64,000 nucleotides of DNA from Candidatus Petromonas tenebris (lineage in GTDB: Bacteria > Bacillota > Clostridia > Peptostreptococcales > Caminicellaceae). Below are positions 649 to 49,150 of this stretch, in pieces. Position numbers and translations under genes: made by a program. Under the pieces are notes generated by a model that was not told the DNA's origin, searched no databases, and saw nothing but the letters and a program-made list of their open reading frames with translations. Location: positions 1-64,000 of the forward strand of contig JACCKY010000002.1 of the NCBI GenBank assembly GCA_014236755.1, written 5' to 3'. The first letter of the stretch is position 1; each line of letters begins with the position of its first letter.

Positions 649-1488
649 TTGATTGAAGATTTTAAAAGATATTTAAAAATTAATGGAGTTAGTAAAGTAA
701 CTATAAAGTCTTATATTTTAAAAATTAAAGAATATATACAATGGTATCAAGAAAGTTTTGGTTTGGAATTTAGTAAACTCTATAGAGAGAATGTGTTAGA
801 TTACCTAAGTTATTTACAAACTGTTAAAAAGAATAATGCCAAAACAATAAACACAAAGGTAAGTGCATTAATTAAATTCAATGAGTTTCTTTGTGAATGC
901 TGTATTCAAGAAAAAATGATAATTAATAAAAATGACAGGATAAGAATACAAGAACAATTAGTAAGTCCTACAAAAATTAGTAAGCAAGAAGTAGAGTAGT
1001 TTAGGCAAAGAATTTTAGAAGAGGAAGGTGTTAAATATTACTGTATTAGTACTATTGCTGCATATTGTGGTTTAAGGATATCAGAAATATTAAATATTAA
1101 ATTAGAAGATTTTAATTTTACTACAAGAGAACTAATAGTTAATAGAGGTAAAGGTAACAAAATGAGAGTAGTATATATGAATCAGAAAGTAATAAATGCT
1201 ATAAGAGAATATTTAAAGGAAAGAAAAAGTGATAGTCCGTACCTTTTTCCTAGTGAAAAATCTTCAACAGGAATGATGCACCCATCGAGTATAAACAAAG
1301 TCTTTAAGAAATATTCAGACTTGATAACACCTCATGAATTAAGACATCACTATGCTACTATGTTAGTTAGTTCAGGATTTTCTATTTCAGAAGTCGCAGC
1401 ACAACTAGGGCATACTAATGTTCATACAACTTTAAGATATAGTCATACAGATAGAAATGAAATTATTAAGAAAATTGATTGTTTATAA
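649..1488 (+). pseudogene. Tyrosine recombinase interrupted by one in-frame amber codon
   Basis: The frame runs from a TTG at 649 (AGGAGGG nine bases upstream) to 1488, about 279 residues, and is interrupted only by a TAG at 997-999 (codon 117), between the N-terminal SAM-like core-binding domain and the catalytic domain. Both halves are in the same frame. All catalytic residues remain: R143 (CGLRISE), H229 and R232 (HELRH), H255 (LGHTNVHTT) and Y264 (RYSH). It was therefore a full-length XerC/D-like or integron/transposon-type recombinase. A single recent nonsense mutation is simplest; suppression or two-part translation cannot be excluded. Target and element are unknown. Confidence 0.8.
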
Positions 1489-1681: not shown

Positions 1682-2473
1682 TTGATTGCAGAAATAAAAG
1701 GCAAGATAAGTTCAACAGGTTCAAACCTTAGTGAACGGTTAGAAGATAAACTCACAGGGGACTTTTTTGGTGCTTTAAGATATATTCCATTTAATAAAGC
1801 CACAAAAAATATTCTATTAAATACTAACATTCTAAGAGAAGATTTTTCATATGTGCTTGAGGTTATCAATGCACTGGATATTGATTATTGGGATAGTAAC
1901 ATTCGGTTTTGGCCTTATGATTCTTTGGGGGAGTTAGATGTCTTACTTGAATTTGAAGATATAATAATAGGTATTGAAGTAAAGTTATACAGCGGATTAT
2001 CTTCTAATGATGATGTTGATAATTCAGATTGTGATTGTGTGATGGAAAGCAATCATCAATTATCCCGAGAGTCGAGAATACTAAAGAAAAAAATAGCAGG
2101 TACTAATAAATCGGCATTATTAATATTTATTGCACCAGAATATACTTGTTATCCTATTTGTAAAGAGGCTTATGAGAGAAATATTATCGAAGATAATGTT
2201 ATTCTTGGATATCTATCGTGGGAAGAAATATTAGTTGCTCTTGAAAAAATAGTCAATACAGAGAAATTGAACAAATATGAAGAATTAATAATAAAAGATT
2301 TTATCGTATTATTAAAAAGGAAGGGGCTGGAACGATTTAAGAGTTTTGACTTTGAATGTCAGAATATAAATCGTGAATTATGGTTCCAGTTTAACACTAA
2401 AAAAAATATAGATATAGATTTTATTTCTTTTAATCAAGACATTACAATGGAGGGTTATTATGAATTTAGGTGA
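1682..2473 (+). CDS. PD-(D/E)XK nuclease-like protein
   Basis: About 263 residues. A PD-(D/E)XK core is visible: D86 in GELDVLLEF and E99-V-K101 in GIEVKLYSG, followed by an NHQLSRESRIL helix typical of the superfamily. These fit a metal-dependent DNA nuclease, but the exact family is unknown to me. Start: TTG 1682 is preferred, 4-5 bases after AGGTGAT; GTG 1673 is the alternative. It is first of four co-directional genes and overlaps the next by 14 bp, so the two are probably translationally coupled. With the recombinase upstream and the integration module downstream, a defence or genome-maintenance role is plausible but inferred. Confidence 0.65.
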   Translation: MIAEIKGKISSTGSNLSERLEDKLTGDFFGALRYIPFNKATKNILLNTNILREDFSYVLEVINALDIDYWDSNIRFWPYDSLGELDVLLEFEDIIIGIEVKLYSGLSSNDDVDNSDCDCVMESNHQLSRESRILKKKIAGTNKSALLIFIAPEYTCYPICKEAYERNIIEDNVILGYLSWEEILVALEKIVNTEKLNKYEELIIKDFIVLLKRKGLERFKSFDFECQNINRELWFQFNTKKNIDIDFISFNQDITMEGYYEFR

Positions 2474-3035
2474 GAATATCAAAAATGCATTTGATGTTGT
2501 AAGGAAAACATATGAAAATGTAGATAAATTAATGAAATTCTGTGATTCTATTGCCAATGATTGTGGGTATGAGGCTGTAACTGATAAGTTTTTAAGGTAT
2601 AAATCAGATTCATATTATGGAGGATGGTTTATTGATAGTTTCATAAAGTTATATCAATCGGAAAAGGATAAAGTATTAGAAAACGATTGGAAAAATGGAC
2701 CTGTATTTGTAATGGAATTAAACTTTGAGGATATACCAACAGTTTACTTGTCTAAATTTGAATATGATAACATCTCCGATTGGTCTAAAGGAGTATCTCC
2801 AACAGAACATTGGGGTTTTTCAGAACCAATAGACTGCCAAGGAAGTGGGTTTAAGGAAAAGAATTTAGATAAAAAAGATGGATATTATGTTTCTGAACCT
2901 GAAACTGAAAATGTTCAGAGTAAGTATTGGGGGATTAAAAGAGTTGTTTATACAACTTTTGATTTATTACAGTTAAATTCAAATAATATTTTAGAAAAAG
3001 TGTTTGGTGAGTTTGATACATTAAGAAACTTATAA
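2460..3035 (+). CDS. Unknown protein coupled to the PD-(D/E)XK gene
   Basis: 191 residues, not recognised. The ATG lies inside the upstream gene with GGAGGG just before it, giving a 14-bp overlap and so probable coupling. The protein is acidic and soluble-looking, without signal peptide or membrane segment. It is rich in W/Y/F clusters (YYGGWFIDSF, SKYWGIKRVVYTTFDLL), which suggests a compact alpha/beta fold. The tight overlap suggests a partner, specificity factor or immunity-type companion of the nuclease-like protein; that is inference from arrangement only. Confidence 0.6.
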   Translation: MNLGENIKNAFDVVRKTYENVDKLMKFCDSIANDCGYEAVTDKFLRYKSDSYYGGWFIDSFIKLYQSEKDKVLENDWKNGPVFVMELNFEDIPTVYLSKFEYDNISDWSKGVSPTEHWGFSEPIDCQGSGFKEKNLDKKDGYYVSEPETENVQSKYWGIKRVVYTTFDLLQLNSNNILEKVFGEFDTLRNL

Positions 3036-3088
3036 ATATGTAAGTAATTAACTAAGATGCACAACTTTATATGTGGAGGGAAATTACT

Positions 3089-3844
3089 ATGGCTGATATT
3101 AATAACCCATCATTATTAATGCCACCAGATAGATATGTTACACTACGAGAGCAGTATGACTATAATTCACCAGACTGTACATTTGAGATTATTCAAACTG
3201 GTAACTTATATAATGCTGGGAAATTTGTTGGTATATTTGCAAGAGAAATACCAAGTGCAAAGCCTGAGGGTGTAAATCTTAGGCGGTTTGAAAATATAGT
3301 TCAGGAAGTGTTTCAGGATTGTTATGCTGCATTTGCCTCTAATAGTTTTACTGATATTCATATAGAAAATTTAAAACAAATATCTTCAGCCATTATATAT
3401 TGGAAAATGTCAAGTCAGGGTGGGCGTGCCAAGTTAAAGATGGAGAACCTGCAATCGAAATGGAATAATGATACAGTAAAACAGTTGCTAGATGCTTATG
3501 TAAAAAAGGATATGTCACTTTTTCGGATTGGAGGAGTTAGAGTACCAACCGCAACAGCATTTATGAGGTTTCTGTTTCCAGATGATTTCGGAATAATGGA
3601 TTCCCGTGTAGTAGGTAAATATACACAACCAAATGGTATAACTACTTTGAGCCTAAGAAATGATGGATACATTAACGATACGAAACAGAATATTGAAAAG
3701 TATGACACAGAATATATAGCCTTTCTTCGTAATGAAGCGGAACTTTTAAACAAGTTAAATGTAAAATTTAAAGATGTTGATGCAAAGGGAGTTGTTGTTT
3801 CTACAGGATTTCGTGCTTGTGATATTGAAATGGCACTCTTTTAA
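3089..3844 (+). CDS. Unknown protein with a helix-hairpin-helix/glycosylase-like segment
   Basis: 251 residues from ATG 3089 (GGAGGG eight bases upstream). The segment FRIGGVRVPTATAFMRF-LFPDDFGIMDSRV resembles the GxG-TAS helix-hairpin-helix plus P-D-x-F-x-I-x-D-x-R-V pattern of OGG-like DNA glycosylase relatives, and a C-terminal R-x-x-D-x-E-x-A-L (residues about 242-250) also recurs in that unnamed group. No catalytic lysine can be assigned with confidence. The 53-bp gap from the preceding gene fits one operon. Tentatively a DNA-binding or base-recognising protein in the island cargo. Confidence 0.5.
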   Translation: MADINNPSLLMPPDRYVTLREQYDYNSPDCTFEIIQTGNLYNAGKFVGIFAREIPSAKPEGVNLRRFENIVQEVFQDCYAAFASNSFTDIHIENLKQISSAIIYWKMSSQGGRAKLKMENLQSKWNNDTVKQLLDAYVKKDMSLFRIGGVRVPTATAFMRFLFPDDFGIMDSRVVGKYTQPNGITTLSLRNDGYINDTKQNIEKYDTEYIAFLRNEAELLNKLNVKFKDVDAKGVVVSTGFRACDIEMALF

Positions 3845-3879
3845 TCAGGTACTAACTATGTAAAAAGGAGGACCTGAAA

Positions 3880-4473
3880 ATGAATAAAATAGATGATCGT
3901 GAAAAGATTAGGATTCTTTTTGAATTATTAGAAAATACCATAAAAGAAAAGTTTAAATATGTAGGAAAAAGAAAATGGGGAAATCCATCGGGTAATCAGC
4001 AGGAATTAGATGTTTATGAAATTGAAGATGGAGTTAATAAAATTTGGCTCTCTACTACAGAATGGTGTAATGCTTCTTCAGGTGAAATTAATAGATGTTG
4101 TATTATAACCACATTGCCGGATTATAACAGGAGAAATACTTTAGGACAGATTTTTGAAATGAATATGCCTTACCATTTTTCAAAATTATTTAATACTCGA
4201 GTATATGAGGAAGGTAATGAAGTTGAAATAAGAAATTATGGGAAATTTACAATAGGCAGAAGAGGATTAAAGAAACAGTATTTTTTTGACTACCTTAGAG
4301 AAAATGGCTTTGAAGATGAGATTAAATATGATGAAGAAGGAAAAGAATATATCAGCGTTATAAAAATAAAGGATAACAATATTAATTCTCAATATTTAAA
4401 ATATAGGTTGATAAAATGGACTAATTTGCTTAAAGAATTTAAAGATTATTATAGAAAACTTTTTGAGCATTAA
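3880..4473 (+). CDS. Unknown protein, last gene of the island cargo
   Basis: 197 residues from ATG 3880 with a strong AAGGAGG upstream. Lysine-rich, soluble-looking, no motif I recognise; the N-terminal half has the look of a small alpha/beta domain and the C-terminus is helical (SQYLKYRLIKWTNLLKEF). It follows the 3089 gene by 35 bp on the same strand and is closed by a strong bidirectional terminator, making it the fourth gene of the cargo unit. Function unknown. Confidence 0.55.
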   Translation: MNKIDDREKIRILFELLENTIKEKFKYVGKRKWGNPSGNQQELDVYEIEDGVNKIWLSTTEWCNASSGEINRCCIITTLPDYNRRNTLGQIFEMNMPYHFSKLFNTRVYEEGNEVEIRNYGKFTIGRRGLKKQYFFDYLRENGFEDEIKYDEEGKEYISVIKIKDNNINSQYLKYRLIKWTNLLKEFKDYYRKLFEH

Positions 4474-4536: not shown

Positions 4537-4588
4537 AAAATAAAAGAGTTGTAAGAATCATTATGGATTCTTACAACTCTTTTATTTT
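4537..4588. terminator. Strong bidirectional terminator between convergent genes
   Basis: A 23-bp inverted repeat (4537-4559 with 4566-4588) around a 6-nt loop, with A-tract on one side and T-tract on the other. It separates the cargo operon from the convergent XRE gene and would serve both. Confidence 0.9.
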
Positions 4589-4596
4589 TGAACTGT

Positions 4597-5474: not shown

Positions 5475-5658
5475 AAAATTAATAAAGAAGGGGTGATATA
5501 AAATCTAATGTTATTTTTAAAACCTGTGTTTTAGCAAATATAAAATTAATAGTATTTAGGTTTCTAATTAAGGAGGTGATAAAATACGAAAATAATTATA
5601 ATTATTAAAGATGTTTTGTAATGTCTAAGGTTTAAAAAGTTTAAGGGGGATGTTAGTT

Positions 5659-6093
5659 ATGAGTTTAGATATTAATATTAATTTATCGAGAAAAGCAAAA
5701 GATTATTTAGATGAAATTAATATTATTGGAATACCAATTGAAGATTCAGATTTAGTAAACAATACAATTGAAATTTTTTACAATATCATAAAAGGATGTA
5801 AAAGTAAACTAAGAAACTACTTTAATGAGAATGAATTATTTTTCTTGTTTGATGTATTTAATGCTAATAAATATAATGGAAACATTAGTGCTAAAAAATA
5901 TCTCTTATATGAATGTGAAGACGTTATAAAAATTGACAGTTTAGATTTAAAGTATGAAATTAATGTTGAGGATTTAATAAATAAAATTAAGGAATTAGAC
6001 GAATTTGAGGCTTTTACAATTATTACAGTAATTAATACTTTCTGGAGAAACCCAAAAAAATATTCTGAAGATTTATCTAAACTATTTGAATAA
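5659..6093 (+). CDS. Small unknown protein of the integrated element
   Basis: 144 residues from ATG 5659; AGGGGG nine bases upstream favours it over ATG 5650, which abuts the ribosome site. Acidic and soluble, no motif recognised. It is the first gene behind the repressor-controlled promoter at 5403, after a leader of over 200 nt. Its position corresponds to early-control or accessory genes of integrative elements, but the sequence itself does not reveal a function. Confidence 0.6.
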   Translation: MSLDININLSRKAKDYLDEINIIGIPIEDSDLVNNTIEIFYNIIKGCKSKLRNYFNENELFFLFDVFNANKYNGNISAKKYLLYECEDVIKIDSLDLKYEINVEDLINKIKELDEFEAFTIITVINTFWRNPKKYSEDLSKLFE

Positions 6094-7972: not shown

Positions 7973-8005
7973 AAAAAGAGATTTCAATGATAACATTGAA
8001 ATCTC
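7971..8005 (-). terminator. Terminator of the tRNA-Leu transcript
   Basis: GAGATTTCAATG (7978-7989) and CATTGAAATCTC (7994-8005) form a perfect 12-bp stem; on the reverse strand it is followed by a run of seven T. It thus ends the leftward tRNA transcript, although it lies on the element side of the tRNA 3' end. Confidence 0.8.
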
Positions 8006-8026
8006 TCCAACCCTTTAAATTTCAAC

Positions 8027-8113
8027 TGGTGCCGAAGGTGGGACTCGAACCCACACGGTATTGCTACCACCGGATTTTGAGTCCGGCGCGTCTGCCAATT
8101 CCACCACTTCGGC
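8027..8113 (-). tRNA. tRNA-Leu (anticodon CAA), integration target
   Basis: Reverse strand, 87 nt including encoded CCA (8027-8029). Acceptor stem GCCGAAG/CTTCGGC, D-loop AATTGGCAGACG, anticodon stem CCGGACTCAAAATCCGG with anticodon CAA, long variable arm and T-loop GGTTCGAGTCC mark a class II tRNA-Leu. The integrase gene ends 55 bp beyond its 3' end, the standard arrangement for tRNA-targeting integrases. Confidence 0.95.
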
Positions 8114-8127
8114 TCGTGACAAATAAT

Positions 8128-8156
8128 ATGATACCATAAAATTTTATAGAGTGCAA
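8128..8156 (-). promoter_or_regulatory. Promoter of tRNA-Leu(CAA)
   Basis: Reverse strand TTGCAC (8151-8156), 17-bp spacer, TATCAT (8128-8133), 14 bp before the tRNA 5' end. Confidence 0.7.
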
Positions 8157-8277
8157 GATATTTTTTATAAGTATTTTAAATACATAATTGTCGAATTTTG
8201 TCGTGTATATATTGTATAGATATCAGGGGTTATGGTATACTAAAAAAAGAGAACATACAAAATATGGTGGTGAGTAT

Positions 8278-9235
8278 ATGGATCCAGTGACCCATGGGGT
8301 GATTGGACTTGCCGTTTCAGCTTTTAGTGGCGATCCTGTTAGTCTAAGTAACCCCGTTAGTGTAGGTTGTGCAATTGGTGCTATGTCTCCGGATATAGAC
8401 GTTGTAGTGAGAGTTATATGGGATGATTATGTTTACTTAAAGCATCATAGAGGTTTTTCACACTCTATACCGTCCCTGCTAGGATTAGCGGGACTGATCA
8501 CTTTAGGATTATCACAATTTTATGGTAACTTTGACTTTTCAAATGTTTTTTTATGGACCTTTATAGGAGCATTTTCACATACGTTCTTTGATATTTTAAA
8601 TTCTTATGGGGCAAAGCTTTTTTCTCCATTTACAGAGCGAAAACTTAGGGCAAATCTTTTAATGCTTTATGATCCTGTGATATCAATATTATCCTTATTG
8701 CTGATATTTAATAAAAACAATAGTCCTTTGTTTTTAACTAGTATATCTATTGCTTTTTTTTGGGTATTTAGGAGTTCGATATCTAATGAAAAGAAGAGCA
8801 CAAAAGATTGTAAAGCAGCATTATCATGACGGTTATAAATTACAAAAAGTAAATATATTACCGGCTCTTATGGCATTTCACAAATGGGATTTTGTTGTTG
8901 ATTCAAACAGTCATCACATAGTGGGACAGGTAAACTTACTGAATAGTGAAATAAAACTGAGAAAGAAATTTAAAAAACCTGACGAAGAAATAATTGAACT
9001 GTTCACTAGTACTAAAGTAGGAAAGTATTTTAAAGAATTTTCACCTGTTTTTCATATAACCTATTTTGAAGAAATGGATAAACTAGTTTTAAAATGTATA
9101 GATTTAAGATATTTCTTTAAAAATAACTTTATGCACCATGCAACGGCAGTATTCGATGAACAAAAAAATATAATAGAATCTTTTCTACATCCTTATGATA
9201 TAAACAAATCTATATACGTTGCTGAAGAAAGCTAA
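8278..9235 (+). pseudogene. DUF457/YdjM-like membrane metal-dependent hydrolase, frameshifted
   Basis: The N-terminal part starts at ATG 8278 (GGTGG upstream) with the family hallmarks MDPVTHG, SPDID and HHRGFSHS, then membrane segments. The frame breaks at an eight-T run (8754-8761). The other frame continues directly with RRAQKIVKQHYHDGYKL and a soluble C-terminal domain to 9235, which is the second half of the same family (about 320 residues in all). So it is one gene split by a one-base slip at a homopolymer: a real mutation, phase-variable slippage or sequencing error. A divergent tRNA precedes it and a terminator follows. Confidence 0.75.
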
Positions 9236-17689: not shown

Positions 17690-17885
17690 TTAATTTCTGA
17701 AATATTCGTCAAGCTCATATTTTGAACCTACATTATAAAAGAGGGAGTTCAATATTTAGGTGTGAATATGTACTTTCAATTGAAACTTATACAAGATATG
17801 GAAAGCGATAGAAGCATCTGTGAGGACACCCACCTATCGAGACGGATAGGTGTCAAAATTTGAGCAGCGGTATTTTGGATACTAT
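17690..17885 (+). ncRNA. ssrS: Probable 6S RNA
   Basis: Gene-free segment right after tRNA-Leu with a long interrupted duplex. GCTCATATTTTGA (17713-17725) pairs with TCAAAATTTGAGC (17853-17865, one mismatch), and AAATA (17700-17704) pairs with TATTT (17871-17875). The 5' strand (TTTCTGAAATATTCGTCAAG) resembles the 5' end of known 6S RNAs (AUGUUCGCAAGC), and GCGGTATTTTGG the 3' end. An internal hairpin CACCTATC/GATAGGTG (17831-17852) fits the 3' central-bubble hairpin. 6S RNA mimics open promoter DNA and binds sigma-A holoenzyme. Ends are approximate. Confidence 0.7.
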
Positions 17886-44134: not shown

Positions 44135-44170
44135 TTGACTTTGACTTTTAATTATGATAACATGTATATG
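44135..44170 (+). promoter_or_regulatory. Promoter(s) of the L21-L27 operon
   Basis: TTGACT (44135-44140) with TAACAT (44158-44163) at 17 bp, and an overlapping TTGACT (44141-44146) with TATATG (44165-44170) at 18 bp, just outside the repeat element. Confidence 0.6.
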
Positions 44171-44173
44171 TTA

Positions 44174-44236
44174 TGTAGCCGCACGGATGAGGTTTTAAAA
44201 ACTTTAAGTTACCTTAATTCGGCGAGACTGGTTTGA
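44174..44236 (+). promoter_or_regulatory. L21-type ribosomal protein leader
   Basis: GCCG (about 44179) closes on CGGC (about 44221) around a nested AGGT/ACCT stem, ending just before the rplU ribosome site. Position and shape fit the Firmicute L21 leader, thought to mediate feedback by the encoded protein. Confidence 0.6.
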
Positions 44237-44249
44237 GGAGGTGGATTTA

Positions 44250-48890: not shown

Positions 48891-48949
48891 AATTATTACA
48901 ATAAATGATAACATATAAATTAAATAGCAAATGAATTAGGAGTAGTAAA

Positions 48950-49150
48950 AAGTAATTCTATTTCAGAGAGCCGATGCTTGGTGGGAATCGGTATAGATAG
49001 CTTTTGAACTTGCCTGTATATATTAAATTTTAATAGGTTGGTTACCTTTACAAACCATATGAGCGAGCTTTATGCTAAATAGGGTGGTACCGCGGGAAAT
49101 TTCTCGTCCCTATAGGGGAGAAAATTTTCGGGTACTACCTTTTTGTTTAA
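48950..49150 (+). promoter_or_regulatory. T-box riboswitch for leuS
   Basis: The diagnostic AGGGTGGTACCGCG T-box lies at 49081-49094. Stem I upstream contains a likely specifier CTT at 49009-49011 (Leu) in GAACTTGCC. GGTGGTACC can pair with the 3' GGTACTACC before TTTTT (to 49145), forming the terminator that uncharged tRNA prevents. Confidence 0.92.

Follow-up and report, generated by a model that had tools for sequence, protein, structure and literature searches.

A nuclease and its small partner protein as a probable two-subunit defense module on a genomic island of Candidatus Petromonas tenebris

Four co-directional genes lie on an island of Candidatus Petromonas tenebris between an interrupted recombinase and a tRNA-Leu integration module, and raise the question of whether all of them define a single defense system or only some belong to a conserved functional unit. 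The window analyzed here comprises the first 64,000 nucleotides of contig JACCKY010000002.1, in which the relevant features are as follows:

649..1488, + strand: tyrosine recombinase preceding the cargo genes, its frame interrupted by one TAG at 997-999
1682..2473, + strand: gene A, predicted PD-(D/E)XK nuclease subunit of 263 aa with a TTG start
2460..3035, + strand: gene B, obligate partner of A, 191 aa, with its start codon within the end of A
2460..2473, + strand: A/B overlap of 14 nt, which holds the start codon of B; a Shine-Dalgarno-like GGAGG lies inside the end of A
3089..3844, + strand: gene C, proposed portable accessory gene of 251 aa, 53 nt past B
3880..4473, + strand: gene D, orphan ORF of 197 aa, with a C-D gap of 35 nt
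4537..4590, usable on both strands: hairpin terminator with a folding energy of -29 kcal/mol (mean of shuffled sequences -5.9, z -10.3)

This layout agrees with the first-pass annotation, which had described four co-directional genes with a 14-bp overlap between the first two, set between a broken recombinase and a tRNA-Leu integration module and closed by a strong terminator. All four ORFs occur at the coordinates it gave, the first two genes share exactly 14 nt, an overlap also kept in other loci, the recombinase is a single frame cut by one stop codon, the hairpin stands far below its shuffled controls, and an intact tyrosine integrase frame is found beside the tRNA-Leu at 8027-8113. The TTG start of A is supported by its homologues, which open with M-[IL]-A-E-I at the same codon. 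The hairpin sits between D and a convergent regulator and can therefore act on both strands. Since the start of the window is also the start of the contig, the left edge of the island is out of view, and no att-site repeats for the tRNA-Leu end were recovered in the window. A further ORF of 147 aa (5650-6093), in the interval from the regulator to the integration module, has no PADLOC match. Elsewhere in the window, Rfam matches were obtained to a 6S RNA (17691-17885), an L21 leader (44167-44239) and a T-box leader (48929-49114).

The first-pass annotation had interpreted the quartet as one operon-encoded system, and the local arrangement is consistent with this, as the genes share a strand, are separated by only 53 nt (B-C) and 35 nt (C-D), and are followed by one terminator past D, such that A-D may be jointly transcribed in the window. 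However, 16 further loci carry A and B but neither C nor D, three further loci carry C but none of A, B and D, and D is without relatives. The quartet was looked for in other genomes and was absent from them, an outcome that the annotation itself had named as evidence against its proposal. Hence, a four-gene system is largely refuted by the co-occurrence data and is rejected here as very improbable; the conserved unit consists of genes A and B.

Searches with A and B recovered the pair at 17 loci in Bacillota, including the window, and in all 17 A is adjacent to B on the same strand. In 14 of the 15 loci that were measured the two genes overlap by 14, 17, 20 or 23 nt with the same frame relation, the single exception being a 58-nt gap, and in one genome (G209) they are fused into one ORF of 387 aa. 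The distances of A and B are correlated (Mantel r 0.91 across 15 loci), a value that the history of the species would also yield. The strict pairing, translational coupling and fusion together suggest that the two proteins function as a single complex. A small overlapping gene pair found on plasmids and islands, in which a nuclease is translationally coupled to a small partner, is also what might be expected of a toxin-antitoxin module, with A as a toxic DNase, B as a dissociable antitoxin and the stabilization of plasmids or islands as the main role. Nevertheless, the natural fusion would join toxin and antitoxin permanently, making a labile antitoxin an unlikely role for B, and the recurrent defense-type neighbors of the pair together with gene C (see below) favor defense, so that we consider a toxin-antitoxin function rather unlikely. 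The two loci in which A is broken while B is retained nearby (L045, by a frame break, and L046, by an insertion of about 2 kb) fit both of these readings. In L046 (7671-10896), the insertion that splits A carries an amidase-like ORF and a B-like ORF remains.

The pair is carried by approximately 1-2.5% of the sampled species genomes and is found on a Niallia plasmid (L008), and its breakage in L045 and L046 resembles that seen in decaying accessory genes. These features bear on the possibility that A-B functions in DNA repair or another housekeeping process unconnected with phages. PD-(D/E)XK nucleases do work in repair as well, as the NucS-like structural match of A (see below) recalls, and some of the pairs lie in housekeeping neighborhoods. 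However, the patchy presence, the varying neighbors, the occurrence on a plasmid and islands, and the decay by frame breaks or insertion are all typical of accessory genes and leave a housekeeping role improbable. No relative of A, B, C or D was recovered from viral contigs, nor any of B, the A-B fusion or C from phages, and a phage or viral origin was accordingly rejected. The A-B DNA was without a match in E. coli. The neighboring gene of a nuclease on a Pseudomonas luteola plasmid (L073) was also considered as a relative of B and discarded, as the two do not match.

Analysis of the A family revealed seven residues (E21, D22, E84, D86, E99, K101 and Q126) that are invariant in 15 homologues, among them the D86/E99/K101 motif that had been read from the window alone and that holds across these divergent proteins. 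With a D...(E/D)-x-K site, a following glutamine and an alpha/beta core, A has the defining features of the PD-(D/E)XK superfamily. The AF2 model of A (pLDDT 80, falling below 50 in the tail) has mainly PD-(D/E)XK nucleases as its structural neighbors, including Can2, BspD6I, NucS, FokI, McrC, Upx, LmuA and SduA, each with Z-scores of 4-7 and all below 8; a Foldseek search with the same model recovered nothing below 0.001. C-terminal to this core, a stretch of about 40 residues (223-263) is modeled as disordered. Most homologues possess a comparable tail of 41-50 aa with a pattern of alternating hydrophobic residues and YEF or a similar motif at its end, though the YE may be due in part to the ATG of B that overlaps it. 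The fused protein of G209 is without this tail of about 40 aa, which suggests that in the separate proteins it normally docks B.

The B protein is modeled with higher confidence (pLDDT 91) and has invariant residues at R46, S49, D50, W56, F61, I62 and P93. Among solved structures it comes closest to type III secretion chaperones and YbjN/AmyR (Z 5.6-7.3 over 100-116 aligned residues), and nearly all of its top structural matches share this chaperone/YbjN fold, with Foldseek E-values above 0.05. As these Z-scores lie below 8, they indicate a resemblance only, which could reflect a common arrangement. A weaker match was obtained to the DNA-binding domain of T4 MotA (Z 5.1). No family was recovered for B in Pfam, PADLOC or NCBIfam, and no match among viral structures.

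These observations on B, and the surroundings of the pair, are relevant to whether A-B acts in the manner of a restriction enzyme. No ORF bearing a [DNS]PP[YFW] motif is present within 6 kb of the 17 loci, the only related occurrence being one chance PPC motif. In light of this lack of an accompanying methyltransferase, A-B is not a classical restriction-modification system, and a type II system was rejected; host methylation is likewise not the discriminator, and self would have to be told from non-self by a phage trigger or by the DNA itself. The latter option corresponds to a type IV-like restriction system without a methyltransferase, in which subunit B would recognize particular DNA, for example phage-modified bases. 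Together with the missing methyltransferase motif, the resemblance of A to McrC, NucS and restriction enzymes and the weak MotA match of B are in line with this proposal, but the better fold matches of B are chaperones rather than DNA-binding proteins, and we regard it as unlikely on balance.

To evaluate the genomic context, a PADLOC scan was run on genes lying no more than 5 kb from each of 16 pairs and, for comparison, on sixteen control regions taken from these genomes. The neighbors of A-B yielded hits to CRISPR I-B, PDC-M09, PDC-M26, DUF2290 with a helicase, and restriction-type genes, and the control regions mostly generic hits together with AbiD, PDC-M37B, DolB and an RT. The defense hits near A-B were thus both more numerous and more specific than those in the controls, but as the control regions are not empty this signal is only suggestive. 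Individual cases include a type I-B CRISPR-Cas locus (L019), a PDC-M26A-like gene (L040), a DUF2290 gene with a helicase (L043), and restriction-type nucleases adjoining A-B in L008 and L045. In four further loci (L009, L010, L017 and L038) the pair lies amid housekeeping genes, and no nearby defense gene was recognized by eye.

A separate line of contextual evidence comes from gene C. Copies that are 72-75% identical were found at three other places (L001, L002 and L003, each at 8001-8753), none of which has A, B or D. In L001 the gene immediately follows a HamB-type helicase operon, and in L002 and L003 it follows Mokosh MkoA-MkoB in the same way, at a distance of 50-140 nt from the respective operon. 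As L002 and L003 are near-identical, the link of C to defense counts two independent loci besides the window. The DNA similarity of the C copy in the window to the others spans the gene and breaks off at both of its borders. In L001 a recombinase that is 53% identical to that at 649-1488 of the window lies upstream of the core, so that both loci share a layout of recombinase, defense core and C. Thus, C trails known types of defense operons in its other occurrences, and A-B holds in the window the slot that these cores occupy elsewhere. We propose, from these sequence contexts, that C is an accessory gene in its own right, one that can be joined to the rear of various defense cores. A partial second copy of the C-terminal quarter of C was also noted in L001 (12701-12892), 4 kb past the full copy. 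Similar ORFs, DUF1643-like by eye, follow two of the copies (L001 8817-9368 and L003 8778-9089), and that of L001 is without a PADLOC match. The 277-aa partner in the HamB-type operon of L001 was not matched by a HamA model.

As to the nature of the C protein itself, the motif LFRIGGVRVPTATAFMRFLFPDDFGIMDSRVV is kept in four copies, and the region of residues ~144-176 can be read by eye as helix-hairpin-helix or glycosylase-like; the corresponding suggestion in the first-pass annotation therefore stands at the level of the visible motif, and no family or solved-structure match was found to bear it out. Searches of plasmids, viral contigs, solved structures and 196 genomes of the class gave no relative of D, nor was a family recovered; this orphan appears to be unrelated cargo outside the conserved unit.

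Taken together, it appears reasonably probable that A-B is a two-subunit nuclease complex triggered by phage via B or via the complex, with C as an accessory and D as an unrelated gene. In such a complex A would provide the PD-(D/E)XK catalytic domain, and B, as a small chaperone-fold-like protein, would bind A and hold or direct it, most likely by docking on the flexible, beta-patterned C-terminal tail. Either B or the complex as a whole could sense a phage cue, upon which the activated nuclease might cut DNA, either that of the phage or that of the whole cell. As judged from genomic context, the pair probably functions in defense. The earlier proposal of a defense cargo thereby survives for A-B, through its co-occurrence and fusion, its likeness to PDC-M15A (see below) and the two defense contexts of C, and is given up for the four genes as a system. 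Should A-B be anti-phage, a function would be at hand for a widespread candidate family, as would a two-gene test case of a small chaperone-like subunit controlling a nuclease; moreover, the presence of the same accessory gene behind three different defense cores makes its effects directly comparable.

Among known families, the closest to A-B is the PADLOC candidate PDC-M15. A matches PDC-M15A (PDLC04456) with an E-value of 1.9e-6, the fused homologue does so with 2.9e-15, and a profile of A recovers PDC-M15A-like proteins with 1.6e-22. A B-like gene neighbors the PDC-M15A-like nuclease in four of the five genomes looked at, and the alignment of these B-like proteins to the B family covers 169 columns (E 5e-8). 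Hence, the two share an organization of a nuclease and a neighbor of about 200 aa (the PDC-M15B model has 211 positions). In L049 (1100-6936), one such distant pair immediately precedes brxF-brxC of BREX. In contrast, no PADLOC model, PDC-M15B included, recovers B or its homologues at E-values up to 1, and the overlap and natural fusion are features seen in A-B. The PDC-M15B model (PDLC04460) also has no match in the 18 genomes that bear the pair, nor in control genomes. Given this failure, the pair of the window is not filed as a member of PDC-M15, though it is related to it. The designation of the system as undescribed is only partly apt, A being a distant relative of PDC-M15A; a literature search found no paper naming either PDC-M15 or REase-ARP. 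Against the model of the latter family (PF22558), the fused homologue reaches 23.4 bits with its A half, under the curated cut-off of 27 bits, and A of the window gives no match. Two true members were unmatched by the A profile and neither has B beside it, and membership in REase-ARP was rejected on account of this score and the unshared neighborhood.

Comparisons at the level of fold and context extend to several further systems. Lamassu LmuA, Shedu SduA, Upx, McrC and Can2 share the nuclease core with A, of which they are structural neighbors (Z 4.0-7.0), but no sequence relation to A was found, and their partners or domain architectures differ from those of A-B. On the side of B, SycT, SycE, ExsC and YbjN/AmyR come nearest in fold, a small alpha/beta one, and secretion-system chaperones of this fold bind an unstructured segment of their partner protein; however, the type III secretion chaperones and YbjN have no sequence relation to B, occur in another context and remain below a Z of 8. 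With Mokosh and Hachiman the likeness is one of arrangement, in that homologues of C stand directly behind the MkoA-MkoB and HamB cores as C does behind A-B, the core proteins themselves being unrelated to A and B. Set against these systems, A-B could tentatively be viewed, on the doubtful side, as a distinct family in which a protein with a secretion-chaperone fold gates a PD-(D/E)XK nuclease by gripping the C-terminal tail of the latter, with C as an add-on shared across Hachiman-type, Mokosh and A-B systems.
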